DNA of 64,000 nucleotides from Atrina japonica (taxonomy: Eukaryota > Mollusca > Bivalvia > Pterioida > Pinnidae). The stretch is from NCBI GenBank assembly GCA_030159075.1, contig BROG01000816.1, positions 33,501 to 97,500 on the forward strand, given 5' to 3'. How positions within the stretch are numbered: the first letter of the stretch is position 1; each line of letters begins with the position of its first letter. A program made the position numbers and the translations under genes. A model generated the notes under the pieces. It did not search any database, was not told where the DNA came from, and saw only the letters and a program-made list of their open reading frames with translations. Shown in pieces: positions 17,901 through 59,909 of the stretch.

Positions 17901-18039
17901 TATACCCTATCACCACTTTCAGTGTGTCTGTTATATTTGATTACTCGTTATAATGTAACTGTGTACTTGTCAACAACTAGATGTGGTCCCAGGTAAAATC
18001 TATGTCATGACCAATTTTTACAGCATTTACAGGAATTAT

Positions 18040-18365: not shown

Positions 18366-21300
18366 CTGAAATATAAAACGTTGTTTACTACAAGCTAGAA
18401 AAGTGCTATATATGAAAGGTTGTATAAATATTATTACTGTAACATCAGTATAAACATTGAAAATATTTACAGTCCTATGTCATGAGCAATACATGAAAGA
18501 GGTTTAATTTCACTTTAATTCAAAATAATGAAAATTATCTAACTAATATTGAGCTGCTATAAACAATTAATCTAATTGCTGTGACACTTTAATCTAACTT
18601 CTCAATGAGATACCACATGTAAACTGTTCAACTGATCGCTGAGATACTGTAACTTATTACTGAGATACTGGGTGATCTAGCTTATCACTTCAGGTACTGG
18701 GTGATCTAACTTGTCATTGAAATACTTTGTGATCTACATGTAATTTATCACAGAGATACTGAGTAATCTACCTTATCACTGAAATACTTTGTGATCTAAC
18801 TAATCACTGAGATACTGTGCAATCTAACTTATCACTGAGATACAGTGTGATCTAACTGTGATCTAACTTATCACTCAGATACTTTGTAATCTAACTTATC
18901 ACTTAGTGATCTAACTTATCACTCAGATACTGTGTGATCTATCTTATCACTGAGATACATTGTCATCTAACTTATCCCTATAACTATGCTGGTTGATCTA
19001 ACTTGTCACTGAGATACTTTGTGATCTAACTTATCACTGAAATAGTGTGATCTAACTTATCACTGAGATACTTTGTGATCTAACTTATCACTGAGATACT
19101 TTGTGATCTAACTTATCACTGAAATAGTGTGATCTAACTTATCACTGAGATACTTTGTGATCTAACTTGTCACTGAGATACTTTGTGATCTAACTTATCA
19201 CTGAAATAGTGTGATCTAACTTATCACTGAGATACTTTGTGATCTAACTTGTCACTGAGATACTTTGTGATCTAACTTATCACTGAAAAAGTGTGATCTA
19301 ACTTATCACTGAGATACTTTGTGATCTAACTTATCACTGAGATACTTTGTGATCTAACTTATCACTGAAATAGTGCAATCTAACTTGTCACTGAAATACT
19401 ACAAGTGATGTTTTCTCTTATAAGTTATGTGTTTAACTTACCACTGAGATACAACATTGTAATGTTTTTATCTTATCAGAGATCTACTTTATCAGTTAAC
19501 TATCTTAGAGTATTTAACTAATCATAGAAGTACTGAAAGTGACCTAAACCGATTCATCACCAAGATTCTGCATGTGCTCTATCTAATTAAAATGTAACCG
19601 AAGATAATTTGGGTTATTTTTTTACATTTCTCACTTACCTATGACAAACTCTTGGTTAGTTTTGTATTTTAATGAGCATTAGGACAACGAAATTGATTGA
19701 CAACATTTAAAGAGTAAAACTCATTCTTTAAAACATGCTTGTTAGAAATATCAATGTTATTATTGATAGAGATGAAATCAACTATATACATATATGTATA
19801 TACAAACAGGAATTCTAAACTTTCTATTAAAACTATTCTGATCAAGAAATAAAATTAGGCCAAAATAAAAATAGAACTGTTTAATTAGCATGACCAAACT
19901 ACCTAACAAAAGCCTTGGAAGCAACATGTTCCAGTAAAAACACTATCATCATGAAGTGTTATGTAGGTATGAAATGAAAAAGTAACCTCAACTAGCTAAA
20001 CACATGGTAAGACAGACAGCCTGGTACCTGTCGTCCAGACAACATAATAACCAAAACGTCAAGATGAATTACCAAAAATGGTACTACACCAAACTGCATC
20101 CAATTGTTTTAAGATAACTTCACTAAATATCAACACCTTTTATTAACATCAGGAGCATTTCCTATTGGTGGTTAGAAGTTTATGATACAGATTCTAATTT
20201 CAATATTAATGTATCAAACATTAAACAAGCTATCACCATGCTAAAAACAGGGTATAGATAAGCTTAATGGTTTAATATTGTTATAGTTATTTGAAATTTT
20301 CTAGCCACATTTTTGAGGCTAAAAAGGAGGGCAAGTGCAAAGCCAGATAGATCTAAGATAACAAGGAGAAAAGGCAGGCCGCAAGGCTTAGCAAATAAAA
20401 ACTGGACAAATTTTCATTAAAATATCTAGACTGCAATCTTAAACCAGTAATACAAACCTACAAAAAAAAAAACCCAAAACAACAACCAAAGACAAAAAAA
20501 AACCAAAACAGCATCACATAAACCATGTTCAGCCATTTTAATAAAAAAAAGTTTGCCTTTTTTCTTCTCTACTAAAAATACACTTATGGATAAAAATAAA
20601 TCTAACAACCAGCCCATTTCCCTGCTTTAGACAAGAACAGCAGGTAGGAGAGTCTGGGGACCATTCATAAAACTTCACAGACAGAATATATAGATATGGT
20701 ACCAAGATAATATATTTTGTGTTGTATTCTTTTTTTTTGTTAGTTGATGTCTAGTTTGACTCCATATTTAGTTCAAACAAATATATCTAAAATTTATTGA
20801 AATAATTCAGTCATTCCAAAATAAAATAATAAAACCAAGTCACAATGGTCTCCATGCAAAACTTTACCCTTGTTCCAGACAGTTTCGTTTTTATGCTTCA
20901 TCTAGGAATTAAAGGTATAACCAGATGAAAAATGCAGCATATTGGAACTTTGATAAAGACCAAAAAATCTGACTGTAAAATTCTTATGTCAAAGAGAAAT
21001 ATCAAAAGCCTTAACTTTGTCACCGTGTAAACATGAACCTAACCCTTTTATCCCCAAGAATCATAATGGCATGCTTATTTTTTTGTATAAGGCTAGTTTA
21101 TTCTAGTCTACAGGGTTGAAAGGGTTCCACACCTAATGTAGGTTTGATTCTTTATTGAAACCAAAGTATGTATAAATTGATTTTAATTCAAGATCATTTC
21201 TTGAAGAATTGGTATCGGTTAAATATAGAATATTTTCAATTCAACTTACTTCGAAACTTTGAAAAAACGCCTAGGCTTCTGCAACCAACTTGACTCAAAA

Positions 21301-24300
21301 AATTTGGACCTTTGACGTCTTTTATCATCTGACTGAGGGGAGGAGGGACTACTTGCTTCCTCTTCTGAGCCTGAGGATAGAGTTCGTACATTTTTATCAT
21401 CCCCTTCACTTTGTTTTCTTTGCTGAGCTTCTAGTTGTTGTTGTTCTGCTTGCAGAGAGAGACCAAGATCAAAGGAGAGCATAGTCTGTTGACACAGTAC
21501 ACCTATTGTCCCCATTTTGACTTTGGCACTTCTTTTTTGTGGTGTTTTCTGTGGGAATATTATTTCTAGTTTTTGAGGTGCTGGAGGTGTTTTGGGAAAC
21601 ACAGTCTTTTTTGATACATGCACTTTTGTTTCACCTGCTGTTGACGCAGCACCGATGTCACTGTCTGACAATGCCGATATTGTTAAGTGTACTTCCTGTT
21701 TTTCTTTAACTCCTTGTTCAGCACTGGAATCACAAGTTGCTGTAGTTGCAGCCCTTTCCCTATATCCGTTGGGAGCTTCAGAGCTTTCATCTTCTTGAGC
21801 ACTTAACAAAGGCATTGATGAATAGTTTATAACATTTGTACTTATAGTTGAATCTGGTTGATATTCCGTTACATTCAATAATTGTGAGTTTGTGAGAGTT
21901 GATGATGATTCAAATGACGTATGACCGATTTCATGATTTTTTCTCTTACTAGTCACAAGTATGGATTTTAATGGTTGACTTTCAGAGTCTGATAAGGCTC
22001 TGTCAGGTGTAGTTCTTGCACTATCAAATGCTTCTGCTAATTTTTTCACCTTATGGCCACTACCATTGGTTAAATCTTTCAAGGGAGCTGTAGCAGTTCG
22101 AGACTGCTCTGGTCCACTGGGAGAGGAAAGTTTTCGCACAATATGTTGGACAAATTCTGATTTTGTTCTTGGAGAATCTGTCTTTTGTACTGTCATAATT
22201 GTTCCATCACTACCACTACTTTTTACACTTAGTGTATCTGGTGTTCCTTCTCGAGACAGCCGTTTTACAATTGTTTTAACGTAGCCATGGGCTAAATTCT
22301 CTTTATCACGGCTGTTTAATTTTTCATCGAAAGTTTTCTTTGAATCATCATGCAAGGCATACTTTTGTAAAATTCTGGTCATATAAACAGACTGCCCTTT
22401 CCTGTATCTCCTACTCTCCTGCAATAGTTCCTCAGCTGGTTTGATCCGGTTTGCACTAGTTACTTGACGTATTCTTGGCCAGTGAAGTCTGGTTTCAACA
22501 GTTCGTCTAGAAATTAAAGGACTATCAGTGACAGATGTCTGACCTTCAGTTTTTGTAATAGTTATGGTTTCTGAATGTGTATCAGTAATTCTAGGAAATG
22601 TGTGTCGCTTGTTTGGATCAACGGAGTTACGGGGATTTTCCTTAGAAACATCATCAACTGTATAAAAGTTTGAAGCATTTCCAAATATAGAATCTGAAGA
22701 ATCCTCAGACACAACACTTCTTTCATCTTGAGAACTACCTTCAACAGTCCTATCACTCAAATCTGACTGTAACCCATCCTCAGGCTCACTTACATCAATA
22801 CTTTGTAGTTTGATTAGTCGACCTCTTTGAGTCTTTTTCCATTCTGGAATGAGAAGTTCTGGGAATTTCATCTCTAGTTTAGGAACATTGCTTTGATGTA
22901 ATTGTTCATGAATCTCTGCTTTTTCTAAGTCTATAACTTTTTCATGTTGATTCCTATTACTTCTTGGAACATTAAGTTCCTGTTGAGATATGTCTCTAGG
23001 TAATTTAATCATTAAAGCAATTTCTACTCCTTTTTCACCACACACTTCTTCAATTGGTTTGGACTGATCTGGGACAATTATTGTTGTCTCATATGTTTCA
23101 GGTTTTTCTACAATATCTGTTACAAAATTGACTTCTTTTGCAGTCTCTGGTTTATTTTCCTCCATAGTTTCGGCAAAATACTGTGGTTGGTCTAAGCTAT
23201 TTACAGCTTGGGCTGGAAGTGTAACAGCTGAGTCTGTACTTAGCTGCTGATCTACAAACTGAGGAGATGAAATTTCTGTTTTAAGGGATACACATTCTTC
23301 TTTGCTTGAATCTGAAAAAATATAAGACACTATTGCAGAACACAATTCTGAGGGTAGATTGAATAGTTGCATACATTCATAGATTAAAGGGATATTAGCT
23401 GTGTTTTTTTTCAAAATTTTATTTTTCCTTTTTTACTACTTAGATCGATATATAAAACAAAAATATACACAGGCATAAAAATTCTGAAGTCCCTATATAA
23501 TTTCTGAAAGTTGCTCGAGAAACACAGGTTTGCCTCATTTTCAATTGCAACTGATTAATTCAACCATACGATTTGTATATGAATACCACACTGGACCTGA
23601 CCTTATTTTCACAAAATATATAGGAATATAAATTTTGTTAGGTCTGTGTATAGCTCTTATTTGTTATTGTACATCAAGTACAAGTAGTCAAAGTAGAAAA
23701 AATAGATTTTTGTTTTGGTAAACACAGCTAATGCCCCATTAATATATCATTAAACAAATATGAAATAATATGCCACAATTGTTAAGATCATTAAAGAACC
23801 ACAAAAGTATACTTGGGTAAGAAATACAGGCTTAAAAGCTATGAATGTAATTTAGGAGTCTGTATACATGTTCAAGGCATTACAAAAAATAACGTAAAAG
23901 TCTTTAAACATGATATTTTTCATAATAATAAAATGTCATTTAATGAAATAATTAATGACCTAATTTTGTATATCTCTGAAATTCTTTTACAATGTCCAAT
24001 GCATTTCAACTATCAAAGTTACATTACCTAATTCAAATCTTTCCACTAATTCTTCACCACAGGCTACTGATGCTCGAACTGCAGTGTTTTTGAGGCCTTT
24101 GGTGAATCTTTTGTATGGTGGAATATAGTTAGTTTCTTCGCCTTCGACCTACAAAACATGGAATTTAGTGGTTCTTTATATCACAAAAACTTCAAGCAAA
24201 ATGTAATGTGGTGCTTCTGTCTTGATTCAAGTATAGCTTGGGTATCTCCACCTTTGTAAAGTCAACCAACCACACCAAAACTACAATCTTACCATTCGAT

Positions 24301-30300: not shown

Positions 30301-32451
30301 CTATGTTATGGAAAAATATATATAAAAATATATCAAAAAGTAATAGAAGGGATCTTTACAACTATAGATGGGGAAAATTGTCTATAGCTCTTGGGTGATT
30401 ACTGCTCCCTTTATCTACATTGTTATCTATATATTTACGATATTTTTTACAAGTTTCTGTAAAACATGACAGCATAATATGCTTTTATAAAATGTATAAA
30501 GTTTGGTAGGTTTACATTTTTTTTTATTTCCAACACTATAATACATGTATATACAATCTGTGTGAAAGTGTAAACATTTATATGTATCATAGCATTACGC
30601 AAAATCATAATCCAACAAAATTTTATAAGCTTTAACTGCCCACACAATAGTCAAAACTATGCAGACTTATCAACCTTGAAAAATTTTTGTGGGGGAGAAT
30701 TTTTCAATTTCATGGGAGAGACTCTAAATTTTAGTAGGATTTAATAGGAAAATTAATTTTTTTCATGGGGGAGATATGCATTTTTCTTGAAGAAATTATC
30801 AAAATTTCACATACAAAATAGGGAGTTTCCTATTTATTGGGAAACTTGGTAACTATGACTATGACTTGGATTGTGTGTCATTTGAAAGCTCACTTGTAAT
30901 GTTCAGAATTCAAAACTGATCAATATGTTCAACTCACAGCAATACTTTCCATAGTGACAGCCAAATTTTCTCCAAAATTTTTCAATTCCTGAATCTTGCA
31001 TTCCAGGTCCGATAATTGACTTGACATAGCCAGTGGTGATGGCGGTTGTGTTGGCCCACCTGTAAGGCATTCTTTCTTATATTGCTCTGTCAGAGTAGAC
31101 ACAAGGTTAGTACGTATTAGTGGTCAGTAATGTAAGGACAAGTACAGGTTGCTGGTCAGTGTTCAACAAGCAGTATCCCAGTATTACAGGAGATATACAA
31201 AACAGACTATAACATTTATAAGAGATATCTACTGACATGGACATAACAGATATATAGAAAAGATTATCTACAAGAAATATATAGAACAGATTATAACATC
31301 TACAAGAGATCTCTGTTGATATGGACATGACAGATATAAAGAACAGATTATCTACAAGAAATATATAGAACATATTATAACATCTATTGATATGGACATA
31401 AAAGATATAAAGAACAGATTATAACATCTACAAGAGATATAAAGAACAGATTATAACATCTACAAGAGATATAAAGAACAGATTATAACATCTACAAGAG
31501 ATATAAAGAACAGATCATAATATCTACAAGAGATATATAAAACAGATTGCCATATATACAAGAGATATCTATTGACATGGACATAATAGATATATAGAAC
31601 AGATTATAACATCTACAAGAGATATCTATTGATATGGACATAAGAGATATATAGGAAAGACTACATCATGTGTAAGAGATATCTAGAACAGATTATAACA
31701 TCTTCAAGAGATATACAGAACATTCTATAACAAATATAACAGATATCTATTGACATGGACTTGAGATACACATATATAGATCAGACTTTAAAATCTACAA
31801 GAGATATATAACAGATAATAACATCTTAAAGAGATATCATAAGAGATATATAGGAAAGACTACATCATGTGTAAGAGATATCTAGAACAGATTATAACAT
31901 CTTCAAGAGATATACAGAACAGACTAACACAGCTATAAGATATATATAGAACAGATTATAACATTTACAAGAGATATACGGAACAAAGTATAACATCTAT
32001 AAGACTAAAGAGATAGATAGAACAACCTAAAGCATCTACATAAGATTTAAGAAAAGATTATAAGATCCATAAGAGATACATGTATATAGAAAAGACAAGT
32101 ATAAAAGATATATAGAATATACTATAGTATCTACTATCCTAGAACTATATACATGTACATAATATTGATATAGGACAATATTGTAACAAAGGAATATATA
32201 GATAAGACTACATGTAAAAGGGTTATATAGAAAAAATACTATTACATGTACATTATGAGATATATAAAAAGACAAATTTCTAATACTTTTTAACTTTTTA
32301 TTATATAGAATTTCATATTTGTGTGATGTAAAATAAGGGAGATTTTAAGAGAAATCATAAAAAAAACTGTCCAGGAACTGTTATAGTACCGGTAATTTAA
32401 AATATCCTAGTATTGTAATGGGAAGAAATGTAAAACAGATTCTATATTATG

Positions 32452-32489
<38 letters not shown>

Positions 32490-33085
32490 TTAAGTTAAAG
32501 TTAAGCTTGATACAGATGATTATACATTGTATATTTAGAAAGAGTTCAAAATGTCACATTTCATAATTTTCTTCTTTAATTTCTGTAAGCGCTTTCGCCT
32601 TTACAGGCTCTTCAGACGGAATACATGTTGTTAAGAATACAGTAGAACTTTAATGAGTCAAATTTTATTGACAAAGTCCCAAATGATTTTGTTGTTTAAC
32701 AGTACTATAAACCTTTTATAATGTGAACTTCTATGAGTCAAATTTCTCATCGTTTTTGGGGCCCATTTCTATAAAAACAACAGAATTTTCTACATATAAT
32801 TCTAAGTCCAAATTTACATGTGTACCAAATCACCCCATCATAATTCTTGTCCTTCAAATAAACAATCAATGTTTCAATTTCTCGAACACTAAGTTAAATT
32901 TAGCACTAATAATTATAATGACCATAAATATGTCTTAAATGGTTGCGAAGTGGTCATATGTACCTTATACCACCTCTAAAACTAAAAATTGCATGATTCT
33001 CGGTCACCATCCATGAGTTGAAGTCCCGATGTTTCAAACTTTCTAGGTGGTCCCTTGAACTTCAACTCATCTAAGTTTTACTGTA

Positions 33086-33163
<78 letters not shown>

Positions 33164-34735
33164 TGATCAATCTAATCTAATTTTACTATGGAAAGTATCT
33201 AAATATGTTTTATTTTCTTGAAAATTTCAGGTATACAATAATTCTACCACAAATTTAATTTATGAATTTAAAAAAAAATATCTAGACTAACACAACAATA
33301 ACACAATCATTAATATGATGAAAACTGCAAGGGAAACTTGTATATTTTGTATTGTGAGCAATTCATAGTTACTTCCCCATAATTTTGTACAAGAACACTG
33401 TAGAAATATTTATCAAAAAGTAACGGTATCCCCCTAGTTAGGATTATAGAAAATGAACTGCATTCAGGATAATAAGCAATGTATAAGATTTATCTCCCTT
33501 TGTATAAGGCAACATTTACATGCAAAATAATGGTAAATCTAGACATGAACGTAAAACTTTGCAAACATTATTGTTTTTCAACATAACAACATAAATGTAG
33601 GTGATTTGAGTTACAGTAAGAATCGGTGGTAAATGTTACTTATAGCCACCCAGTAGCCACATCACTTAGTATCCACATCACTCAGTAGCCACATCACCCA
33701 GTAACACACATGTTAATGACATTGTGTTAGTTGTGTTTTAGTGTGTTAACAATCAACAAAATTATGTAAACATGAACAAACGTATACAGCAACTTAAAAA
33801 AAGAAAACATCATTTATTATTACAATAAACTTACAATGTACCGTAAAACAACAAAACATTATTCACAATTAAGACTTATTTCAAAAGCTGATAACTGAAT
33901 ATACAACAAAAATTTGAAAAGAAAGTTTTTTATTGTAATTTAATATACAATATTGTACAACAACAAAATTGGTGTTACAATGTACCACAACTGAGGTGTC
34001 AAACTCACCAATTTCTTTGGAATGTTGAATTCTGGCTTTGTTGAGTTTTTCATTTAGATCCTGGACTTCGTCTTGTAAGGCAGCATATTCCATTTCTTTT
34101 TCTTGTAATTCTTCCAACAATTGTGCATTAGCTTTTTCTAAGCTGAAGTACAAAATATCATAAATTTACTAAATCTACGTCAATATGATAAAACCTGAGT
34201 TTATTGCATGAAACAGGAAATGTGTTCAAATACTAGGTCTAATACATATCATAAATGTGTTTATATAGGATCTATAATTCTTTTTTAATCTACAATATTT
34301 AGTAAAAAAAAAAATTGTAACATCTTTGGTAGTGAAGGATTTATCGAAGAAATTTTTTTTAATTGCCATTTTTCAGTGTGAAAAATAATACTCCATTTAA
34401 AGTCAATGTAAACTGTGTTATTTTCACTCGCCCAATCAAAATCCTTTTCAAATTTTGCGAATACATTTTTTTGAGAAATAAATATGTAATAAATAAAATA
34501 TTTGCTAATTTTTTTAATAACATTGTTAATTTAATCTTGTGAGACAGAGGAATATATATTCTGCACTCTATATATTCCATTGCAAAAATAAGTAAGCAAA
34601 AAATAAATAATATATCAGTGAATATCAGCATCATGTGACAAGGCAAAGATGCCAGTAGAATGGATTAACTGATAAAATGTAACTATCTAGATTATTTATT
34701 GTTATATATTTTCTGTACTAAGGAACTTTATTCTT

Positions 34736-34771
<36 letters not shown>

Positions 34772-37700
34772 TAACTTTGTGTGTTTGTGTACATGTAAAG
34801 GAGACTGTGTGTGTTAGTGTATGCATGTGTGACTGTTACAAGAGGCAGCCTGAGTGCATATGTGACAGTGTGTGTTTATGTATGATAATATTTATGTATT
34901 TGAACAGTAAACATTCCAGTTCTTTTATACATTTCACATGCCTTCTGATATGAGTTACACTACTGTATTACATGACTCCTCTCAAAACAATCTCTAGATG
35001 CAAACACTAGGACCAAATTGAGTTAGACATTCATTCAGTGACTGGTATAGGGAGATAAATTTACAAACATGTTCTTGGCTTTTATCTATGGTTAAATCTA
35101 CAGCTGCAGTAGTTTATTAGACACTTATGAATTATTACATGGCAAAGTATGTCTGAGCTGCCTCAGAACATTAGATAACAGTCTACAATGGCTACCTTCA
35201 TACCCAAAGCTAAAACTGATCTCAAATCAGATTTCTAACTCCAAATAGTATGCAGGTCAGACCATGGATAGAAAGATACAGAATGTCGATTTGATATTCC
35301 ATCAGGAATGCTACATAAATGATGTCTGTACATAATGTCCCATTATTTACTTTTGAAATAATTGGGCATGTGAAATGGAGTATTTTCATGCATTGTGTTT
35401 AATTATTAAAACAAACTAAAGAGTAAAAAAAAAGTATGTTTACTGTTTTATGATATAAATGATTTTGGTTATTTTGGATATAAAATCTTGGTTATACTGG
35501 AGGCCATCATGATATAAATACCTGCTTATGTTAAATATAAATACTTGGTAATGTTAAACATAAATACCTGATAATGTTAGAAATAAATACCTGGTTATAT
35601 AAGAAATAAATACCTGGTTATATTAGATATAAATACCTTGTTATATTAGCTATAAATACCTGGTTATGTTAGAAATAAATACCTGGTTATATTAGCTATA
35701 AATACCTGGTTATGACAGAGCAAATTATAGTGTATAAATACCTGGTTATATTAGCTATAAATACCTGGTAATGTTAGAAATAAATACCAGGTTATATTAG
35801 ATATAAATACCTGGTTATGTCAGAGCAAATTATAGTGTGTAAATACCTGGTTATATTAGATATATATAAATACCTGGTAAAGTTATATGTAAATACTTGA
35901 TTATATCAGCTATAAATACCTGGTTATGTTAGATATAAATACCTGGTAAAGTTAGATATAAATACTTGATTATATCAGATATAAATACCTGGTTGGTTAT
36001 ATCAGGTATAAATACTTGATTATATCAGATATAAATACCTGGTTATATTAGATATAAATACATTTAAGTTAAAGTAAACTGCTTGCTTTCATTTGATTTA
36101 ACAAGCAGCATGACTACTTAAATGTCCTGTGGGGCAGGGAGAGATGTCTTGTGTGTTACTATCTGTCTTTAGTGGTCTGTATTTCCAATGGCTTTATTCA
36201 TGTAAGAGAAATCTGACATGACTGAGCCACTCTATCTACTTTAGAGTCAATTAAAAATACCTGAATCTGTTACATTTAAGTACAGGGTTATGCTAGAGCC
36301 AATTGTAATATATAGATACCTGAATCTGTTACATATTAGTTTCTGGTTATGCTACAGTCAATTATAACATATAGACACCTGAATCTGTTACATATTAGTA
36401 CGTTGTTATACTAGAGTCAATTGTATTACATAAACCACCTGAATCTTTTACATTTAAGTATCTGGTTATGCTAGAGTCAATTATAATATATAGATACCTG
36501 AATCTTTTACATTTAAGTATCTGGTTATGCTAGAGTCAATTATAATATACAGATACCTGAATCTGTTACATTTAAGTATCTGGTTATGCTAGAGTCAATT
36601 ATTTTATATAGATACCTGAATCTGTTAGATATTAGTATCTGGTTATGCTAGAGTCAATTATTTTATATAGATACCTGAATCTGTTAGATATTAGTATCTG
36701 GTTATGCTAGAGTCAATTATTTTATATAGATACCTGAATCTGTTAGATATTAGCATCTGGTTATGCTAGAGTCAATTATTTTATATAGATACCTGAATCT
36801 GTTAGATATTAGTATCTGGTTATGCTAGAGTCAATTATAACATATAGATACCTGAATCTGTTAGATATTAGTATCTGGTTATGCTAGAGTCAATTATAAC
36901 ATATAGATACCTGAATCTGTTAGATATTAGTATCTGGTTATGCTAGAGTCAATTATAACATATAGATACCCGAATCTGTTAGATATTAGCATCTGGTTAT
37001 GCTAGAGTCAATTATTTTATATAGATACCTGAATCTGTTAGATATTAGTATCTGGTTATGCTAGAGTCAATTATTTTATATAGATACCCGAATCTGTTAG
37101 ATATTAGCATCTGGTTATGCTAGAGTCAATTATTTTATATAGATACCTGAAGCTGTTAGATATTAGTATCTGGTTATGCTAGAGTCAATTATTTTATATA
37201 GATACCTGAATCTGTTAGATATTAGCATCTGGTTATGCTAGAGTCAATTATTTTATATAGATACCTGAATCTGTTAGATATTAGTATCTGGTTATGCTAG
37301 AGTCAATTATAACATATAGATATCTGAATCTGTTAGATATTAGCATCTGGTTATGCTAGAGTCAATTATTTTATATAGATACCTGAATCTGTTACATATA
37401 AGTATCTGGTTATGCTAGAGTCAATTATTTTATATAGATACCTGAATCTGTTAGATATTAGTATCTGGTTATGCTAGAGTCAATTATAACATATAGATAC
37501 CTGAATCTGTTAGATATTAGCATCTGGTTATGCTAGAGTCAATTATAACATATAGATATCTGAATCTGTTAGATATTAGCATCTGGTTATGCTAGAGTCA
37601 ATTATTTTATATAGATACCTGAATCTGTTACATATAAGTATCTGGTTATGCTAGAGTCAATTATTTTATATAGATACCTGAATCTGTTAGATATTAGTAT

Positions 37701-40379
37701 CTGGTTATGCTAGAGTCAATTATAACATATAGATACCTGAATCTGTTAGATATTAGCATCTGGTTATGCTAGAGTCAATTATAACATATAGATACCTGAA
37801 TCTGTTACATATAAGTATCTGGTTATGCTAGAGTCAATTATAACATATAGATACCTGGTTATGCTAGAGTCAATTATTTTATATAGATACCTGGTTATGT
37901 TTGAGTCAGTCATACTTTCCATGGTAATTGATGTATCGTCACCAAAGCTCTCTAGTGATGACCTTGATCTTGCTCCAGGTGAAATTTCTTCTGGTGAATC
38001 AGTGCATGGCATTAAGGTCAATGGTGGTGGTTTTTGACCTTTTGATAATTTTCTAGGTGGTGCATCTGTGATGGGCAATTCCTCAACAGTAGAACTAATA
38101 CTTTCTTTCTTTTGCTGAGCGAGATCTGGGCTCTGTCCTTGCTCTAAACTTCGGTGATGGGCTTCAAGGTAAGTAGCTGGTGAAACGACTGATGGTTGAC
38201 CCTGACCTTTCCTTAATTCCCATTCATGTAATTTTCTAGCGAAGTCTGTGGTAACTTTGTATTCAGCTAAAGGACTCAGTATTGGATTTTTGAATTTTGT
38301 TTCTAAGTCTGATTGACTAAGACGACCTTTCATTTTTTCTATCCTGGCTTCTCTTTCTAGAGCTTTTAATCTCTCTTTTTCAAGCCTGATTTTCTCCTTT
38401 TCAAGTTTGTGTTGTTCCCTTTCAACTCTCTGAATTTCTCGTTCCCTCTGTCTTTCAAATTTTTCTCGATCCTTTTCCTCCTTACTCTTGCGGCTTTTTT
38501 GACGATCATCTTTCCTCATCAGTGGTTTAGAACTACTATCTTTTCTGTCCAGTGGTGGACTTCCATCTCTACGATATTTTCTTCTTTCCCATTCTTCCAT
38601 TTTTCTATTAAAGCTGTCTGTTAATTTCCGCTGCATTTCTTCAATGTTTATGGGCTGACCATGAATTTCTGGTGGAGTGGAAACACCCTCTGGAGATACC
38701 TCTCCAGAATCTTGAGTGGGCTGATCTTCAATTAATTTACTGGAACCTAAAACAATTGTTGAGAATTAAAATTTTAAGAGTTATATAATCAAGTTGACAT
38801 TTTTCTATTTTAAAATTCAACAAGCATCAAACTGGTCTGAACAGCAACATTTAATCTCAAATTCGATTACCAGTACTGTATTAGACCCAATAATAAGTTC
38901 CCCTCTGCTATAGTTCAGATTTACTCATCATTTTTACACACAATCAAGAATCTTTTCATGTCCGTTGATGAGGAGAGGTGGAAAAACTTGAGTAACAATT
39001 TATCTCTAGCCCCCAGAGCAACAAAAGAATGTTGATAAGTGTCCTTGGTAATAACTGCAAACTTTACCACAGTGCCTTATAAAATAAATAACTGTTTATG
39101 TCAATTTGAATAATATTAGTTTCAATAAGAGCCTATCCCTTTCCCCTCCCCCAATTTTTAGCACTGAGTGATTATTGGGTTGAATGCAGTATATGCAATT
39201 CATCATATCTGCCATGTAATATTCAAATTTACAAAAATAAATCTACAAATATCATTTTCTTCTGGATTCCCCTATTACCATTGGTGATTCGATAGAAAAT
39301 ATTTGTGACTTCAAAATATGTTTTGCCACTTAGTACTATACACAATTTGTTTCATTATACTTTTCTTGGAAATAATTTACATTTCTTCATTTAACTAGAA
39401 AAGACCACAAAACCACACAGAAATGTTCATTTGACCACAACATGTGTATATCACAGACATGGTGTCTGAGGTTTCTTTCCTTCATGACAAAAAACAAAAC
39501 TTGGTACAATGTTGTACAGTGACATCTTCTGGCAATCACATTAATTTCGTAATAGACTAAACAAAGTCTTGTTTAAAACACAACAGAAAGCATACACATG
39601 TCTTATAATTATATCTAACCTTTTTAAACATTACATAAATCAAAAGAAATATAAAAGATGTAAATGTCTCCACAAAGGACAGATGATAACCTTGTGTCCA
39701 GGACAACCGAGACTCTATATTAGTACTCGATTACATAAATCAAAAGAAATATAAAGGTTCAAATGTCTCCACAAAGGATAACCTTGTGTCCAGGACAACC
39801 GAGACTCTATATTAGTACTCGATTACATAAATCAAAAGAAATATAAAGGTTCAAATGTCTCCACAAAGGAGAGACGATGACCTTGTGTCCAGGACAACCG
39901 AGACTCTACATTAGTACTCGATTATATAAATCAAAAGAAATATAAAAGATGTAAATGTCTCCACAAATGGCTGACAACAAAGGCTCTATATGACAACTGA
40001 GGCTCTACCTGATACCACAGTGTCACCAGCTTACATTTTAATGTAAAAAACATAACAATCTGATTCAAAATTATTTCATCAATTTCAGCCAACATCGAAA
40101 TTAAGATTTTTTTTAATTACAATAGTAATTTCTATTATAATTTCTTCCCAGGTGTTTTGTAACTGGGTTCTCTCCTCCACCATTACAAACTGACCACCAC
40201 CATATAACTGAATAATTGTTGAGTGTGGCATAAAACAACATTCAAAATAATAACAAAAATTCTATTATAATTAAGATTGGTTCTGCAAACTTTAAAGATG
40301 TAACCTACTGTTACCTACATGTAGGATCTAAGTTTGGTTCCAAAATATATCATTCACCCCTAAAGACATTTTTGTTTTG

Positions 40380-56047: not shown

Positions 56048-59000
56048 GTTCATGTTTCTCTTCTGGATGAAAATATAAAAATTAAAATATTGACTATGTA
56101 CATATATTTGTATTAACTATGTTGACCTTTTTGGCATTTTTTTTTCAGGAGTTTTTATGATTTTCATATTTGTTCTCTATAACAAATATTTGATCAAAAT
56201 GTCAAAACCAATGTATTATCATTTCTGTGAGACAATCTTAAAACACCTATACAGCTCAAAATATTTGTCAAACATTACAGTATAGTCCGACTGTTAAAGG
56301 GACATTTTATTGTGTTGCAATAGAAAAAGGAATTAGGCTTTTGCTTTTTTTCCAACTTTTACTACTTGTACTTGATGTAAAATAACAAATAACTGTTCCA
56401 GCTTTAACAAATAAACTTAGTATACAATCTCTTATACTCCTATAGGAAAATTTTTCGTGAGAAATACAAGGTCAAGTCCACGTGCGTGTGGTATTCATAT
56501 ACAAACAGCAATTTCGTTGTAAGTTAATCAATTCGGGGGAAAAAAACTGGTCGCAATTGAATGAGGTAATCACTCGAATCTAAAAAATGGGTTTCTCAAG
56601 CAATTTTCACAAAATATATAGAAATTTAGGAATGTTTATGACTGTGTTTATCTCTTTCTTGTTATTTTATATCAATATAAGTAGTAAAAAAGAAAAACAA
56701 TTTTTTTTATAAAAAACACAGTTAAGGGACATTAGATGTGTTTATCATCAATATTATTTTGATTTTTTACTACATGTACTTGATGTACAAAACAAGTAGG
56801 AGTTATACACAGGCATTATATGATTATAACAATTATATTATAAAAATTATATAAATTATATATTATATTATATAAATTATAACAATTTTATATTCCTATA
56901 TATTTTGTGAAAATAAGGTCAGGTATGGTCAGGTCCAGTGTTGTAGGCATATACAAATACAATGTAGCAATCAATTGCAAGTGAAAAAGTGCCAAACCTG
57001 GGTTCTAATTTAATTTTCACAAAAATATATAGGAACTCAAGAAGTTTCATGCCTGTGTATTTTTCTTTTTGTAATTATATACAAATCTAAGTACCGGTAC
57101 ACAAAAAAACAGGAAAAGAATGCCTGTGTATTCTCAAAAGAATCGAAGTAATAAAAGGAAAGAAATATTTCAAAAGTGAAGAGGAAACCACAAATTTAGG
57201 TGTTTGAAAAAAACATTGTAACATGATTTTGTGTTTTGTGATTTAAGTCGTATTTACAGTGTTGGCGGTTGTTTGGACATGATATAATAGTCGTAACTGT
57301 CACAAATCCTCATAGAGTTCTCATAGTCGCAATATTTACAGGATATGGACAAAGATTAATGCTCACATAGACTGATACAGGATTGCACCAGTTACATTTG
57401 GTACACAATTCTGTCAACAAGAACGGCTGAATATATAGGTGATTATTCTGAATAACAAGAATTTCATCATAACAAATCCAAAAAAGCAAACAGATTATGA
57501 TCATGATAAGACTTTTGTGTAAATGAACTATAGGAATTCACCAAAGTTGTACAGAGAGCAGTGTTTTCTTTTTACATCCCAAAGTGCCTTTTCCTCAGTA
57601 CATAATGAGTGCTACCAATCAAAGAAAAATGGTCATTTGACCAAAACATGGGAAATTTAAGAATATATTTAAACAAAAGTAAAACATAAGCAAAACAACA
57701 AACAACAATAACAAAACCCAGAGAAAAATCATAAAGAAAAAAATCAATATCTTCCTGTAATTTTTATCCAATTTCAAGTGAAAAACCAAAGTAGACAGGT
57801 TCAATACATTCTCCAGCTTTACATCCTTACTGCATCAAACCACCATTCCTACACCTTGATTAGCAAAGGTCATTATAAAAACTTGAAATGAATCAATACA
57901 ATAATGACTTACCCATGAGTAAGGATACATCAATACTGCCTCCCATCTGACTAATCATTGTTGGGGAAAACTTTGTAGGAGGTGAATCGCTCATACTTTT
58001 TTCTCTAGGTTTTTGTCTAATAGCCATTGGTGATGTTTTTGGTGTAGACCTTCCAACTGGACCTTCTTGTTCGTCATATCTGAAATCATCAATGTCAACC
58101 TCCGACAACTCTTCTCCACCGCTATGATCAACATCTGACATTCTATGTCCAGATTTTTTAATAAGTCTCTTTTTTATACTATCTTTTCGAGTATGGACCA
58201 TTTTTACAACTTTCCCCCAGGCTGCTTTGTGTAATTTTTTCCCTAATTTTGGAGATCCTAAAATTTGTTCTTTTCCTTCAGTTAAATCAGCCTGAGAAGA
58301 TCTTAATTTGTGACTTGAGGACCTACGTAAGGGTACATAACTCTCTCCATCAGAGGAATCACATTTATCATCATGATCAAGTAAAGAGGGACTACTTTTC
58401 CTCCGAGGTATTGGCACTTGTAAAAACTTTTCAGCTTCTTCTTTGTTTGTAGCACTTTTGAGAATTATAATTTCTTTATGTTCTAAACAGGATGTAGGAC
58501 TAGACAACTCTTCCTCATGTTCTTGTAACCATTCTGGTGGACCCATCCAGATACCTGATGCTAATTCAGCTTTGCTCCTTTCATCAAAAGGTGGGGTAAA
58601 TGGTGGAGGACTAGCAGGCTCACCTGATGAAGTGGATTTTCTCTGTCCTTCTAATCCTTCAGCTTCTACCCCACTCCCAACTCCACTATCTACTGACCGG
58701 CCATCCAGAGCACTAAAAGCAGGTACACTTAATTCCTTTGGAGTACCAAGGGAACCATATCTGATATGGCTGGTACCAGATGCAAAGTCTTTCTTTGTTT
58801 TGACACCAATAGCAAAATCCTCAGGCAGTTTCTGCCTGGTCAGTACTTTGATGATTTTAGACCAATTAGATTTTCGAGACTTCCTTTTAGCACTAGGTGA
58901 TTTTGAACCTTTACTGGAAACTCTACCTTTTTTCTCATATGATTCAGAAAGCATTTTCTTTGGAATCTCATCTTCAGATTGCTCCATGATATCAGATGGA

Positions 59001-59909
59001 ATGTCAAGGGAACCTGTGGAAAAACTCCGCTTGCTGAGAGTTGCCTTTGGTCTTTTGGGACTAGAATCAGAGGAGGTTTCCACAGAGTCCAAACTCATAA
59101 CATCTTCAGCACTTGCAAGGCGTGGTCGGCCACCTTTCTCTCTCCCTCCAGATTTTGATTTAGCACTTTTTGGCAACGAATTATACCCTGTAAGATAACC
59201 AATTTCTGATTCTACAGCACTTTTCACCTGCAGCAAATTTTTTGTACTTTCTAAATATTCACACTTTTTCTTCAGTTTTAAATTTTCATCTCTTAAAGTA
59301 GATAACTGCTCCATTAATTTGACCAAATTGTCCAAATGATCCAATCCAATGCTTTGCCTCACAGGACTAGGACTTGAAGATCTTGATTTTCTAGACCTAA
59401 GTGTTAAGGCCTTTGCTTGTTGTTGCTCTTGAAAACTTTTACCTTGTGCCTCAAAAAATTCCAGGACCTGGGCATGAGGTATTTCCACCTCTTGTTGTTG
59501 TACTGCCATGGTGTATTGCACTTTAAGTTGTCTGGCCATGGTTGAGGTAGTATTTGTTGTTGTTGCTGACAACTCAACAACTGTAGTAGTGGTAGTAGCA
59601 CTTTCATGATGTCCATTGAGGTCTATCACACTATGTGAGACAACAGGACTATCTATACTCAGTGGACTAGCTTCTGTGCCCACAATTCTTTCTCCCTGTC
59701 TTCTGCCCTCTGATGCTGTTGTGATGATGCTTGGAACCAGTTGTTCTGAGGGCAGATAGGTCATTCTTATTTCTTGTCTTGCAAGTTGCACTGGTGGAAT
59801 AACTTTCCTTTCCTCCCGCTGGACCTTGACATACAATCGTTCATGGTTCTGGTCATCTGGCGGTCGCCTTGCTGCCATTTAGGGACAGCAAAGACCGACT
59901 ACATTGGAC
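18040..59909 (-). CDS. Unrecognised ~1955-residue coiled-coil/EWE-motif protein (gene span)
   Basis: Twelve exons join with matching phases: 59909-57913 (ATG at 59878-59876), 43155-43075, 40723-40619, 38746-37891, 34142-34009, 31086-30938, 28107-28005, 27378-27302, 25688-25482, 24148-24028, 23311-21250 and 18365-18359 (stop). The CDS is 5868 nt. The product is Ser/Lys/Glu-rich and mostly disordered, with a coiled coil near 180-225, two W(S/G)K(I/V)(I/V)K motifs, four K-x-x-EWE motifs between about 660 and 897, an E/R/K-rich helix about 800-860, a leucine-rich coiled-coil stretch about 1003-1230, and a long acidic Ser-rich tail. No signal peptide or membrane segment is visible. I do not recognise the family; a cytoskeletal or signalling scaffold is only an inference from composition. 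All introns are GT-AG. Confidence 0.85.
18640..19405 (+). repeat. 28-bp minisatellite
   Basis: About 25 copies of GATCTAACTTATCACTGAGA followed by TACTTTGT, some shortened to AAATAGTGT. It lies in the last intron of the minus-strand gene. Confidence 0.93.
19406..21249. other. Intron of minus-strand gene, no feature seen
   Basis: AT-rich DNA upstream of the donor at 21248-21249. No exon on either strand was recognised. Confidence 0.45.
21250..23311 (-). CDS. Minus-strand gene exon 11 (long acidic Ser-rich tail)
   Basis: 2062 bp, phase 1 in and 2 out, acceptor TTTTTTCAG. It codes about 687 residues starting DSSKEECVSLKTEISS. The Met-initiated frame reaching to 23414 extends into intron and is not the true start. 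The tail is low complexity (Ser, Thr, Glu, Lys) with Gln-rich LQAEQQQLEAQQRKQ and a basic end KPRRFFKVSK. A consensus donor GTAAGT sits exactly where an in-frame TAA would end the protein, so spliced and unspliced transcripts differ by one residue. Confidence 0.88.
23406..23745. mobile_element. Fold-back MITE-like element, copy 1
   Basis: Internal inverted arms: TACACAGGCATAAAAATTCT..CCCTATATAATTTC faces AAAATATATAGGAATATAAA..GTCTGTGTATAG. The centre holds AATTGCAACTGATTAATTC and GAATACCACACTGGACCTGA. Two related copies lie at 56290-57125. Confidence 0.65.
24028..24148 (-). CDS. Minus-strand gene exon 10
   Basis: 121 bp, phase 0 to 1, acceptor TTTTGTAG, donor GTAATG. It codes VEGEETNYIPPYKRFTKGLK then NTAVRASVACGEELVERFEL. 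Its Pro/aromatic content suggests an ordered conserved segment. Confidence 0.87.
24149..25481. other. Intron 9 of minus-strand gene, no feature seen
   Basis: AT-rich intron. No repeat or RNA gene recognised. Confidence 0.5.
25482..25688 (-). CDS. Minus-strand gene exon 9
   Basis: 207 bp, phase 0 at both ends, a very long pyrimidine tract before acceptor TTTAG, donor GTAAGT. It codes LSNLRLSQIERNKEIMSMKR, then QLLLQEANNLLLQADITRRE and ..KRWNTYGGMEGRV: continued coiled coil and a basic end. Confidence 0.9.
25865..26075 (+). repeat. Inverted intronic repeat, arm 1
   Basis: About 200 bp (AATTTCTTCAAGAAAAATGC, CTAAAATTTAGAGTCTC, AATTTTTCAAGGTTGGCAAG) are the diverged reverse complement of 30655-30865. 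Confidence 0.75.
26290..26900 (+). repeat. 26-bp minisatellite
   Basis: About 23 copies of GATATTTGTTATATGGCTGT followed by TTATCT, in intron 8 of the minus-strand gene. The 76-codon open frame here is a repeat artefact. Confidence 0.93.
27302..27378 (-). CDS. Minus-strand gene exon 8
   Basis: 77 bp, phase 1 to 0, acceptor ATTTCAG, donor GTAAAA. It codes EVYQKTTALHSFEKLYSHAM then QLQVQ. Confidence 0.86.
27710..27875 (+). repeat. 20-bp minisatellite
   Basis: About eight copies of GTGAAACATACATATAAGAT, in intron 7 of the minus-strand gene. Overlapping minus-strand open frames are artefacts of it. Confidence 0.93.
28005..28107 (-). CDS. Minus-strand gene exon 7
   Basis: 103 bp, phase 0 to 1, acceptor TGTTTCAG, donor GTATAT. 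It codes VCKWQSVEGEENVNTRLMD and LLEQMRLMLLQASQS. A short in-frame helical exon. Confidence 0.88.
28130..28505 (+). repeat. 74-bp minisatellite next to exon 7
   Basis: Five copies of a 74-bp unit (AATTACAAAGTGTATTGTAA, GAGTTACAGCCCTGTATATG, AAATGTATCAGGACTGTATG) begin about 25 bp beyond the exon 7 acceptor. The units are nearly identical. Confidence 0.95.
28986..29100. repeat. Near-perfect palindrome, 47-bp arms
   Basis: Arm 28986-29032 (starts AATCATGTTTATCTAA, ends TTCAAAATTTGAAAAGA) is the near-exact reverse complement of 29053-29100. The loop is 20 bp. It lies in intron 6 of the minus-strand gene. Confidence 0.85.
29425..29545 (-). mobile_element. SINE family 1 tail, minus orientation
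   Basis: Reverse complement of the family 1 tail: GGCCAGTGGTCTCTTCCTGG, CTCCACCACTAAAAACTGG, TTGTTGAGTGTGGCACAAAG. The tRNA head is not evident. Confidence 0.7.
29850..30205 (+). repeat. Irregular ~60-bp minisatellite
   Basis: About six copies built on GTAACAGCCCTGTTTAACCC, TATAACTCTGT and AATTTGTAAAA. It shares GTAA(G/A)AGT(T/A)ACAGCCCTGT with the array at 28130. Confidence 0.85.
30655..30865 (-). repeat. Inverted intronic repeat, arm 2
   Basis: Diverged reverse complement of 25865-26075: CAACCTTGAAAAATTTTTG, GAGACTCTAAATTTTAG, GCATTTTTCTTGAAGAAATT. It lies in intron 6, on the other side of exons 7 and 8. Confidence 0.75.
30938..31086 (-). CDS. Minus-strand gene exon 6
   Basis: 149 bp, phase 1 to 0, acceptor TCTGACAG, donor GTGAGT. 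It codes QYKKECLTGGPTQPPSPLAM then SSQLSDLECKIQELKNFGEN and LAVTMESIA: a Pro-rich linker followed by a helix. Confidence 0.88.
31170..32290 (+). repeat. ~30-bp minisatellite with larger duplications
   Basis: Over 30 diverged copies of AACAGATTATAACATCTACA followed by AGAGATATATAGA, with interspersed ATTGATATGGACATAA variants. A block around AGGAAAGACTACATCATG occurs twice (about 31650 and 31850). Confidence 0.92.
32457..32486. repeat. (AT)n microsatellite
   Basis: About 14 AT dinucleotides in intron 5 of the minus-strand gene. Confidence 0.95.
32581..32621 (-). ncRNA. Hammerhead-ribozyme-like motif (type I, minimal)
   Basis: On the minus strand the order is: stem I 5' strand TTCCGT (32621-32616); core CTGAAGA (32615-32609), fitting C3-U4-G5-A6-N7-G8-A9; stem II GCCT / loop GTAA / AGGC (32608-32597), a 4-bp stem capped by a GNRA tetraloop; core GAA (32596-32594); a very short self-complementary stem III AGCGCT (32593-32588), supplying A15.1 and U16.1; U at 32587 as residue 17; and stem I 3' strand ACAGAA (32586-32581), pairing with TTCCGT except one A.C mismatch. 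Cleavage is predicted 3' of 32587. Known family: minimal type I hammerheads occur in Penelope-like elements and retrozymes of molluscs. Here it is in intron 5 of the minus-strand gene, in sense orientation. No reverse transcriptase is nearby. Confidence 0.7.
33086..33160. repeat. (GT)n/(AT)n microsatellite
   Basis: A short GT run, then about 30 AT dinucleotides. Confidence 0.95.
33161..34008. other. Intron 5, 5' portion, little structure
   Basis: AT-rich. At 33640-33705 about four copies of a TAGCCACATCAC(C/T)CAG-type 17-bp unit form a very short array. Nothing else seen. Confidence 0.5.
34009..34142 (-). CDS. Minus-strand gene exon 5 (coiled coil)
   Basis: 134 bp, phase 2 to 1, acceptor TACTTCAG, donor GTGAGT. 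It codes LEKANAQLLEELQEKEME then YAALQDEVQDLNEKLNKA.., a heptad-rich coiled coil. Confidence 0.9.
34736..34772. repeat. (TA)n(CA)n microsatellite
   Basis: TATATA followed by ACACACAC, then a GT-rich stretch to about 34880. Confidence 0.9.
35515..36065 (+). repeat. 23-24-bp minisatellite carrying splice-donor-like motif
   Basis: About 23 copies of ATAAATACCTGGTTATATTA followed by GAT. On the minus strand each reads AACCAG|GTATTTAT, close to the real exon 4 donor AACCAG|GTATCTAT located 1.8 kb away. Confidence 0.9.
36240..37890 (+). repeat. 59-bp satellite abutting exon 4 and carrying its 5' splice site
   Basis: About 28 copies of a 59-bp unit: ATAGATACCTGAATCTGTTA, GATATTAGTATCTGGTTATG, CTAGAGTCAATTATTTTAT. 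The two units touching the exon are a shorter 36-bp form. Exon 4's last bases (GGTTATGTTTGAGTCAGTCA on the plus strand) resemble the monomer's GGTTATGCTAGAGTCAATTA, so the array appears to derive from the exon-intron junction. Confidence 0.95.
37891..38746 (-). CDS. Minus-strand gene exon 4 (EWE motifs, E/R/K helix)
   Basis: 856 bp, phase 1 in and 2 out, acceptor TTTTAG. It codes two further motifs, SFNRKMEEWERRK (about 762-774) and DFARKLHEWELRK (about 885-897), with between them a highly charged E/R/K segment (REREIQRVEREQHKLEKEK) likely to form a single alpha helix. It ends in a Ser-rich stretch, MESMTDSNIT. The donor CAG|GTATCT at 37889-37890 is the first of a tandem series carried by the adjoining satellite. 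Confidence 0.88.
38747..39585. other. Intron 3 of minus-strand gene, unstructured part
   Basis: No feature recognised. Confidence 0.45.
39590..40010 (+). repeat. ~101-bp tandem repeat, four copies
   Basis: Unit contains CATAAATCAAAAGAAATATA, AATGTCTCCACAAAGGA and CCTTGTGTCCAGGACAACCG. One copy is shortened by an 11-bp loss; the last decays. Confidence 0.9.
40148..40250 (+). mobile_element. SINE family 1 tail fragment
   Basis: TTTTGTAACTGGGTTCTCTC, GACCACCACCATATAACTG and TTGTTGAGTGTGGCATAAAA match the family tail. The tRNA head is missing, so it is a 5'-truncated copy. Confidence 0.75.
40369..40504. repeat. Poly(T)/poly(A) tract
   Basis: About 135 bp of T with rare G and C. Lys- and Phe-rich open frames across it are artefacts. 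Confidence 0.95.
40619..40723 (-). CDS. Minus-strand gene exon 3
   Basis: 105 bp, phase 1 to 1, acceptor TTTTACAG, donor GTAAGT. It codes DSSDGAESVFPDSIG.. then SPEFQKKMEEWERSKSIK, the second EWE motif at the exon end. Confidence 0.88.
41705..42320. mobile_element. Putative MITE with CAGTGGAACC ends
   Basis: CAGTGGAACCTGTCTTGAGG.. and TGGTCTCTCATAAGAAG near 41707-41785 face TTTTATGAGAGTGGTCTCCC..TAGATGGGTTCCACTGCAG near 42278-42320. The termini are inverted, and the roughly 615-bp interior has no coding capacity. An internal part (42095-42200) is shared with 5700-5970. Confidence 0.55.
43075..43155 (-). CDS. Minus-strand gene exon 2
   Basis: 81 bp, phase 1 to 1, acceptor TTTTACAG, donor GTAAGT. 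It codes GGMSDEFSKKWKQWEELQ then TKRLSTPLK, the first K-x-x-WE motif. Confidence 0.85.
43156..45795. other. Intron 1, proximal part
   Basis: A GGCCTTTATA / GGTGGCCTTTAATGCAAGG phrase repeats three or four times at about 44110-44225. Nothing else was recognised; short open frames at 43417 and 45254 have no support. Confidence 0.45.
45797..46086 (+). mobile_element. tRNA-derived SINE (family 2), young full copy
   Basis: Starts GAGCCGGCCTGGCTCAGTCG (tRNA box A) and ends ..GTGGGACGTTAAACAACAAC followed by (AAAC)n. A perfect 13-bp target duplication ACTAAGAAAATTG flanks it (45784-45796 and 46087-46099), so both ends are exact. Confidence 0.93.
46100..46985. other. Intron 1 segment, no feature
   Basis: Only a short duplication was seen: ATGCTGAAGAGATT(A/G)T..TCCCTTG occurs at about 46170 and 46255. 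Confidence 0.45.
46990..47120 (+). mobile_element. SINE family 1 tail fragment, diverged
   Basis: TGGTCAGTGGTCTCTTTTGG, TCCACCAATAAAAATTGGTC, GCCACCATTTCATGAAATA and a GTAAGTGTAGAGTAAAAC end: the same tail in the same order. Confidence 0.65.
47360..47470 (+). mobile_element. SINE family 1 tail feeding a satellite
   Basis: AGAAAGTTTGCTAG.., GGAAGGCCAGTGGTCTCATC and AACCAGGTTCTCTCCACCA match the family body, and the remainder continues straight into the 66-bp array. Confidence 0.75.
47429..47828 (+). repeat. 66-bp satellite derived from the SINE tail, six copies
   Basis: Unit of exactly 66 bp (CACCACTATGCTGCCACCAT, ATAACTGTAAAATTGTTGTG, TGACAAAAACACCATAC); TATGCT recurs at 47435, 47501, 47567, 47633, 47699 and 47765. 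Because 66 is a multiple of three, open frames of up to 154 codons arise on both strands. They are not genes. Confidence 0.97.
47829..48830. other. Intron 1 segment, no feature
   Basis: AT-rich DNA; no repeat, exon or RNA gene recognised. Confidence 0.4.
48940..49700 (+). repeat. Diffuse long-period tandem repeat (~130 bp)
   Basis: Recurring phrases TATGACATCATAAATA, GGGGCTTATGACTGTCA, ATATGACACTGTCAGCATG and TCTGGTATTGAGGTTTAT. Copies are strongly diverged. Confidence 0.7.
50143..50208. repeat. (GT)n microsatellite
   Basis: About 30 GT units, interrupted once by TCAT. Confidence 0.95.
50595..51000 (+). repeat. 36-bp minisatellite
   Basis: About ten copies of GTGGACACATATATTGCTCA followed by CCTGAGCATCATCAGA. 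The period is a multiple of three, so both strands stay open over about 125 codons (repeating RVDTYIAHLSII on +). Judged non-coding. Confidence 0.95.
51001..51970. other. Intron 1 segment, no feature
   Basis: No repeat or exon recognised. Confidence 0.4.
51975..52690 (+). repeat. ~110-bp tandem repeat
   Basis: About six diverged copies containing AACAACCAATCTAGATCATC, TTGTCATTGAGACCTG, TTTTGTGACAACCTGTGTCA and TATGATTGCTGTCAAATGAC. Confidence 0.9.
52972..53145 (+). repeat. 73-bp tandem duplication
   Basis: Two and a half copies of GAATCACGTCACATGACCAA, CATAATAATTACTTATTCCT and AATACAAGCATGTGACAAAC. The GTCACATGAC core is an 8-base E-box-like palindrome, present three times. Confidence 0.9.
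53935..54295 (+). repeat. CCTACCCTGACA minisatellite
   Basis: Diverged 20-27-bp copies of CCTACCCTGACACAGGACC. One copy (about 54135-54195) reads in the opposite orientation, so the array contains a local inversion. Confidence 0.85.
54530..55548 (+). mobile_element. Repetitive element: ~165-bp tandem block plus terminal hairpin
   Basis: Five or six diverged copies of a unit with GCCATATTGGATTCTGATCT, GAAAATGCAATATGCACAA, CTAGACCTCAAGGGGAA and AACAAACTTCCTTTGGTCA. It ends GGACGGACAGACAGACAGGC and then a perfect 12-bp stem, 4-base loop hairpin at 55520-55547 (TAGCCCACCATC/GATGGTGGGCTA). The terminal hairpin suggests a non-autonomous DNA element; a Helitron-type end is possible but unproven. 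Confidence 0.75.
55575..55930 (+). repeat. 46-bp minisatellite
   Basis: About eight copies of CCTTTTTCCTTCTTTATGAC, TATGTACATATATGTAAACA and TATGTGG; one is shortened. Confidence 0.95.
55986..56050. repeat. (TA)n(TG)n microsatellite
   Basis: TA run merging into a TG run, directly after the 46-bp array. Confidence 0.95.
56290..57125. mobile_element. Fold-back MITE-like element, copies 2 and 3 in tandem
   Basis: CTGTTAAAGGGACATT (56291) and CAGTTAAGGGACATTAGATG (about 56719) start two adjacent copies. Each contains ACTACTTGTACTTGATGTA or ACTACATGTACTTGATGTAC, a central AATTG block and ATTTTCACAAAATATATAG, matching the element at 23406. Each folds on itself. Confidence 0.65.
57126..57912. other. 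Start of intron 1, no feature
   Basis: Sequence next to the exon 1 donor; no repeat recognised. Confidence 0.45.
57913..59909 (-). CDS. Minus-strand gene exon 1 (first coding exon, 655 residues)
   Basis: The ATG at 59876-59878 opens MAARRPPDDQ; the 31 bases before it are 5' UTR beginning after an acceptor (TTTCAG), so at least one upstream non-coding exon exists. The donor GTAAGT follows ..SIDVSLLMG at 57913, phase 1. The exon holds a Thr/Gln-rich region (95-155), a likely coiled coil at about 180-225 (LVKLMEQLSTLRDENLKLKK), WSKIIKVLTRQK at 339-350, GIWMGPPEWLQEHEEE at 442-457, a related WGKVVKMVHTRK at 554-565, many Ser-Pro sites, and an acidic patch (about 588-605). Reading on past the donor gives only six more codons. 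A 251-codon open frame on the opposite strand is a shadow. Confidence 0.9.

Follow-up and report, generated by a model that had tools for sequence, protein, structure and literature searches.

A candidate minimal hammerhead motif in an intron of a bivalve gene and its possible descent from a mobile element

Is a hammerhead-like motif within an intron a working ribozyme, the relic of a mobile element, or an accident of base composition? This question is raised by a stretch of 64,000 nucleotides from the bivalve Atrina japonica (contig BROG01000816.1 of assembly GCA_030159075.1, positions 33,501 to 97,500 of the forward strand; hereafter the window), whose minus strand carries a motif with the complete core of a type I hammerhead in coding intron 5 of a gene with molluscan homologues. 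The answer that we favor, with slightly better than even confidence, is that the motif is a single decayed and dispersed minimal type I hammerhead of the Penelope or retrozyme kind, which came to lie in intron 5 by happenstance and is practically inactive. The levels of confidence attached to this and to the other readings are judgements and were not computed.

Structure of the motif and its expected frequency

Direct reading of the minus strand from 5' to 3' gives every invariant position of the type I hammerhead core (C3 U4 G5 A6 N7 G8 A9, G12 A13 A14, A15.1-U16.1 and H17) in the proper order (Table 1). Stem II opens with the pair G10.1-C11.1 and consists of four pairs capped by a GNRA-type loop. 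Stem I is composed, in order, of U-A, G-C, a C x A mismatch, C-G, U-A and U-A, which amounts to five pairs in six positions, and the mismatch (C32618 opposite A32584) lies near the predicted cleavage site between positions 32587 and 32586. The core consensus was taken from the description in PMC3088659, as was the rule that the pairs adjacent to the core be intact; pairs 1.1-2.1, 10.1-11.1 and 15.1-16.1 read A-U, G-C and A-U, so the motif passes that filter. Stem III is reduced to the self-complementary AGCGCU, a form that is described for minimal Penelope and dimeric hammerheads in PMC7761336 and PMC3088659. A complete AGCGCU helix would need two molecules or a pair of tandem copies, and within a monomer stem III would come down to one A-U pair closing four bases.

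The rate at which such a motif would be expected by chance was estimated from both strands of simulated Markov sequence fitted to the window (592 Mb of order 1 and 316 Mb of order 3). The stricter criterion called for a stem II of at least four pairs with a loop of at most 8, a stem I of at least five pairs in six positions, and A15.1-U16.1 plus at least two further complementary stem III positions, stem III being scored by complementarity only with no demand on loop size. This combination occurred 20 times in the order 1 sequence and 19 times in the order 3 sequence, which corresponds to 0.0022 and 0.0038 expected occurrences per 64 kb. Restricting loops II and III to at most 4 left 1 and 3 events, respectively (0.0001 and 0.0006 expected per 64 kb), while a looser criterion (stem II of at least three pairs, stem I of at least five in six, any stem III up to 40) raised the expectation to 0.06-0.09 per window. 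The window holds one place that qualifies under each of the three stricter criteria applied and two that qualify under the loosest. By the Markov control, a motif of this quality is rarer than 1 in 200 windows, under criteria that were chosen after the motif had been seen.

A further control made use of the core plus AGCGCU as a string, which was sought in viral contigs with a spacer of 6 to 24 bases and in contigs of prokaryote genomes with a spacer of 8 to 12 bases. The string was found at 31 viral loci (25 distinct sequences) and 90 prokaryote loci (87 distinct), all of which were scored and were taken as chance matches without inspection of their genes. A stem II of at least four pairs, considered alone, was present in 3/31 viral and 7/90 prokaryote loci, and a stem I of at least five pairs in six positions, again considered alone, in 0/31 and 6/90. 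None of the 121 core-matching sequences had both stems. This control is weak and shows only that the two stems together are uncommon. One of these matches that was read individually (L001) has no stem II pairing, and an exact 21-base string used to look for copies has no match in the viral contigs.

Table 1. Positions of the motif, its parts and the host gene features in the window
Feature	Position	Strand	Basis
Hammerhead-like motif, type I order, 41 nucleotides	32581..32621	-	direct reading, motif scan, chance rate
Stem I, 5' strand, UUCCGU	32621-32616	-	direct reading, motif scan
Core C3-A9, CUGAAGA, with A at the free position 7	32615-32609	-	direct reading
Stem II, 4 base pairs, GNRA-type loop: GCCU 32608-32605, GUAA 32604-32601, AGGC 32600-32597	32597..32608	-	direct reading, motif scan
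Core G12 A13 A14	32596-32594	-	direct reading
Reduced stem III, AGCGCU, self-complementary: A15.1 32593, GCGC 32592-32589, U16.1 32588	32588..32593	-	direct reading, folding
Residue 17, U	32587	-	direct reading
Stem I, 3' strand, ACAGAA	32586-32581	-	direct reading
Rival hairpin CUGUAA-AG-GC-GAAA-GC-GC-UUACAG, built from stem II and stem I bases	32583..32606	-	folding
Intron of the host gene, the fifth coding one by homology; donor GTGAGT (34008), acceptor CAG (ends at 31087)	31087..34008	-	homologous exons, splice sites by eye
Long open reading frame with molluscan protein homologues, which includes coding exon 1 of the host gene	57893..59878	-	protein matches

The host gene and its intron

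Of 7992 candidate proteins scored, 29 match the long open reading frame (ORF) in which coding exon 1 of the host gene lies (E <= 0.001). Six of the 29 are named and all six are molluscan, the best of them coming from the ark clam Tegillarca granosa (49% identity), while one unnamed protein is 63% identical to the ORF. Coding exons were mapped with the homologues P0001, P0004, P0014 and part of P0023 to approximately 59878-57911, 43162-43076, 40724-40611, 38744-37893, 34144-33989 and 31087-30935, and they run consecutively along the Tegillarca protein with no notable gap. The motif lies in the middle of the 2922-base intron between the last two of these exons and in the sense direction; homologous exons and GT-AG splice letters agree in placing it in coding intron 5. 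Judging from its homologues, the host gene is that of a mollusc, and probably of a bivalve. An initial annotation of the window had described a lone, sense-oriented hammerhead in intron 5 of a minus-strand gene, with all invariant core positions, a GNRA-capped stem II of four pairs, five stem I pairs and one mismatch, AGCGCU as a stem III like that of minimal Penelope hammerheads, and a cut that would leave an RNA 5' end at 32586, and the sequence agrees with each part of this description, the cut being a predicted one.

Neither blastn nor nhmmer found a second copy of the motif in the window among the matches listed, and the window shows no hammerhead-bearing unit of 150-450 base pairs (bp) in several copies, which is the form expected of metazoan retrozymes. 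Pfam domains were sought in 10 of the 13 ORFs of at least 45 amino acids in the intron region, those omitted being the ORFs of exon 5 and exon 6 and one that is rich in repeats (33075-33221, plus strand). No mobile-element domain, including the Penelope reverse transcriptase and GIY-YIG domains, was found in these 10 ORFs, although a truncated relic could be without such a domain. The Penelope arrangement, in which a pseudo long terminal repeat (pseudo-LTR) stands beside an ORF for reverse transcriptase and GIY-YIG, was likewise not seen among them. Weak matches of intronic ORFs to Herpes_UL49_5 (E 0.07) and Cas8b_C (E 0.38) were below the cut-off and were taken as chance.

Two 21-base direct copies that are 90% alike (32645-32665 and 32725-32745) are spaced 80 bases apart next to the motif, on its 5' side in the minus sense, and are perhaps the remnant of an old tandem repeat. 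A tandem origin of the motif was considered and rejected, as the hammerhead itself is unduplicated. Tandem arrays are abundant in the window (107 Tandem Repeats Finder rows, some of them overlapping); several lie in introns of the host gene, and the arrays include 31185-32078, 36257-37857, 16937-17913 and 60528-61767. The minus-strand ORFs of the host gene (that of the first coding exon and those at 37779-38765 and 33881-34165) gave no Pfam match above the cut-off despite their molluscan homologues, and the shortest, 33881-34165, weakly matches several coiled-coil families. A 728-residue ORF at 21246-23432 on the minus strand, also without a Pfam match, may represent either a further exon downstream in this gene or a second gene. 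A scan for bacterial promoters and terminators is irrelevant to an animal intron.

Origin of the motif and alternative readings

The case for a dispersed hammerhead relic draws on the complete core, on the G10.1-C11.1 pair of stem II, on the five pairs in six of stem I, on the intact core-adjacent pairs, on the low chance rate and, with limited power, on the control of 121 core matches, as well as on the molluscan identity of the host gene and on what other animal genomes contain. Animal genomes are described in PMC7761336 as carrying thousands of dispersed minimal hammerheads without helix III letters, some of which are found in the pseudo-LTRs of Penelope elements. The Mediterranean mussel is reported to have approximately 5000 type I hammerheads, usually in repeats of 350-390 bp (PMC7229834). 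Among other bivalves, annotated Penelope copies are put at 57,601 for Ostrea edulis, at 39,094 for Saccostrea glomerata and at 90,093 for Pinctada martensii in PMC9679248, and at 11,273 for the hard clam in PMC8905726. A stray relic within an intron would be unsurprising in animals of this kind. The initial annotation had raised the possibility of an old Penelope-like or retrozyme insertion; the minimal type I layout of the motif agrees with that proposal. No second copy was found in the window, however, and no mobile-element domain in the 10 intronic ORFs, so an insertion is not shown directly and descent from a mobile element is something we infer only from the clade.

In the putative parent element, two tandem copies would build stem III jointly by pairing through the palindromic AGCGCU, and the parent RNA would cut itself into units as a dimer. 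The lone intronic copy would have no such partner, its transcript would mostly take up a simple hairpin or further folds that are not hammerheads, and the motif would be removed by splicing together with the intron. The predicted folds described below suggest that the motif is inactive. In PMC11167929, a Penelope hammerhead of Anolis is reported not to have cleaved without added protein, and in PMC3088659, where 14 of 18 hammerheads conforming to the consensus cut in vitro, there is also a warning of inactive or false candidates.

Several observations weigh against a decayed hammerhead. No Rfam family matched at its gathering cut-off anywhere in the window. When 600 bases were searched at loose thresholds, the matches obtained were snoR103 (20.1 bits), mir-297 (17.2), Hammerhead_3 (13.9) and SNORD22 (13.2), so that the best hammerhead match, 13.9 bits where the type III model demands 48.5, had E = 8 and stood third of four chance-level matches. 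The type I family (RF00163) gave no reported match in that search (E > 10, or dropped as weaker within its clan). The covariance-model match by which the initial annotation proposed to check the motif was thus not obtained, although this result is weak evidence, as low scores may be inherent to minimal forms and the search was without a positive control for minimal hammerheads. The usual residue at position 17 of natural hammerheads is C, and the U found here is uncommon. To these points are added the two negative results given above, on a second copy in the window and on mobile-element domains in the 10 intronic ORFs. The criteria for the chance rate were fixed post hoc and many windows were scanned; approximately 0.5 loci with both stems would be expected among the 90 prokaryote loci if the stems were independent, and 0/90 is no more telling than that. 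A stable helix III is possible in most type I hammerheads of invertebrates according to PMC7761336 but not in the motif here, and PMC9679248 gives few Penelope copies for Crassostrea (4,421 in C. gigas and 764 in C. virginica).

The main rival reading, which is possible though clearly the less probable of the two, is that an AT-rich intron has spelled a hammerhead core by chance, aided by a short hairpin (GCGAAAGC within CUGUAA/UUACAG) that supplies the GAA and the GCGC, and that the motif has no function. The Rfam result is consistent with this reading, as are the U17 and the stem I mismatch. The fold of the 71-nucleotide region has an energy z of only -1.13, with 24 of 200 shuffles being equally good, and the hammerhead is not among any of the computed folds. 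In addition, when many windows are read, a rare match is to be expected somewhere. Against chance, a motif of equal quality is expected only 0.002-0.004 times per window, both stems occurred together in none of the 121 core matches elsewhere (a comparison of limited power), and real minimal hammerheads are reported to be common in animals of the same kind (PMC7229834, PMC7761336).

Folding of the 41-nucleotide core favors the hairpin listed in Table 1, which has a predicted energy of -9.9 kcal/mol compared to -4.6 for the hammerhead with stems I and II and +0.9 when A15.1-U16.1 is included, and is therefore more stable by 5-11 kcal/mol. With 6, 20, 40, 80 or 150 bases of flank, the pairing probability is 0.000-0.003 for stem I, 0.03-0.35 for stem II and 0.63-0.93 for the outermost pair of the hairpin. 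Stem II survives in the best structure of the 71-nucleotide fold and in those obtained when the flanks are 40 or 150 bases long, never alongside stem I. The three stems do not form jointly in one molecule in the predicted folds, although minimal Penelope-type forms are said to work as dimers. In a dimer, too, the hammerhead arrangement (-17.7) is less stable than the best dimer fold (-27.1). The energy rules omit the non-standard contacts of the hammerhead core, so the folds make activity less likely rather than excluding it.

It is improbable that the hairpin, CUGUAA-AGGCGAAAGCGC-UUACAG, is itself the true element, such as the relic of another repeat, and the likeness to a hammerhead a by-product. 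The hairpin is the best fold of the core and is the likelier structure in the ensemble whichever of the five flanks is used. The window, however, holds 159 inverted repeats of 6 bases with a 12-base spacer, many probably lying within AT-rich repeats, and nothing singles out the one in the motif, while the 71-nucleotide fold and flanks of 40 or 150 bases give a different best structure that retains stem II.

More doubtful again is the reading of a functional ribozyme domesticated in intron 5, where it would cleave the pre-mRNA of the host gene and adjust its splicing, as proposed for RECK and C10orf118 of amniotes. The sense orientation within a GT-AG intron and the complete core would suit such a role, and there are precedents for intronic hammerheads in the amniote RECK and C10orf118 introns, which are described in PMC3088659 and PMC6155905. 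In the motif here, on the other hand, stem III of the monomer would amount to one A-U pair enclosing four bases, next to no pairing is predicted for stem I, the hairpin is the more stable fold, and both the U17 and a mismatch near the cut are present; the suggestion of the initial annotation that the motif could cut the pre-mRNA is therefore not upheld. Least probable of all is an active, dimer-dependent hammerhead in the sense direction of intron 5, which would cut only when two nascent transcripts pair via AGCGCU and would make cleavage of the intron depend on transcript concentration.

Comparison with known hammerheads

If the motif is a real relic, it would be one further dispersed minimal hammerhead beside the thousands reported from animal genomes (PMC7761336), as well as a place to ask what becomes of hammerhead relics once they are within introns. 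Taken alone it has little consequence, and only proven cleavage of the pre-mRNA would be notable.

The core letters of the motif align with the Hammerhead_3 family of Rfam (RF00008), at the low score given above. With the hammerheads of mammalian and avian RECK and C10orf118 (PMC3088659), the motif has in common the hammerhead layout and a location in a spliced intron, and it differs from them in that its predicted folding is poor. The non-LTR retrozymes of metazoans, as described for Mytilus galloprovincialis in PMC7229834, resemble the motif in type I order and in belonging to a molluscan genome of low G+C content. Unlike the motif, they are found in repeats of a few hundred bp that are often in tandem (PMC7229834), and most of those in invertebrates are able to form a stable helix III (PMC7761336), neither of which is seen here.

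The motif differs from the minimal type I hammerheads carried by Penelope-like elements and by Terminons (Cervera and de la Pena 2014, as described in PMC7761336): the window yielded no tandem partner for it, the 10 intronic ORFs yielded neither a Penelope reverse transcriptase nor a GIY-YIG domain, and it has a stem I mismatch and U17. Minimal Penelope forms are said in PMC7761336 to be without a loop-loop contact between stems I and II. What the motif shares with the Penelope-like and Terminon hammerheads is the type I order, a near-absent and self-complementary stem III, and a location in non-coding DNA.
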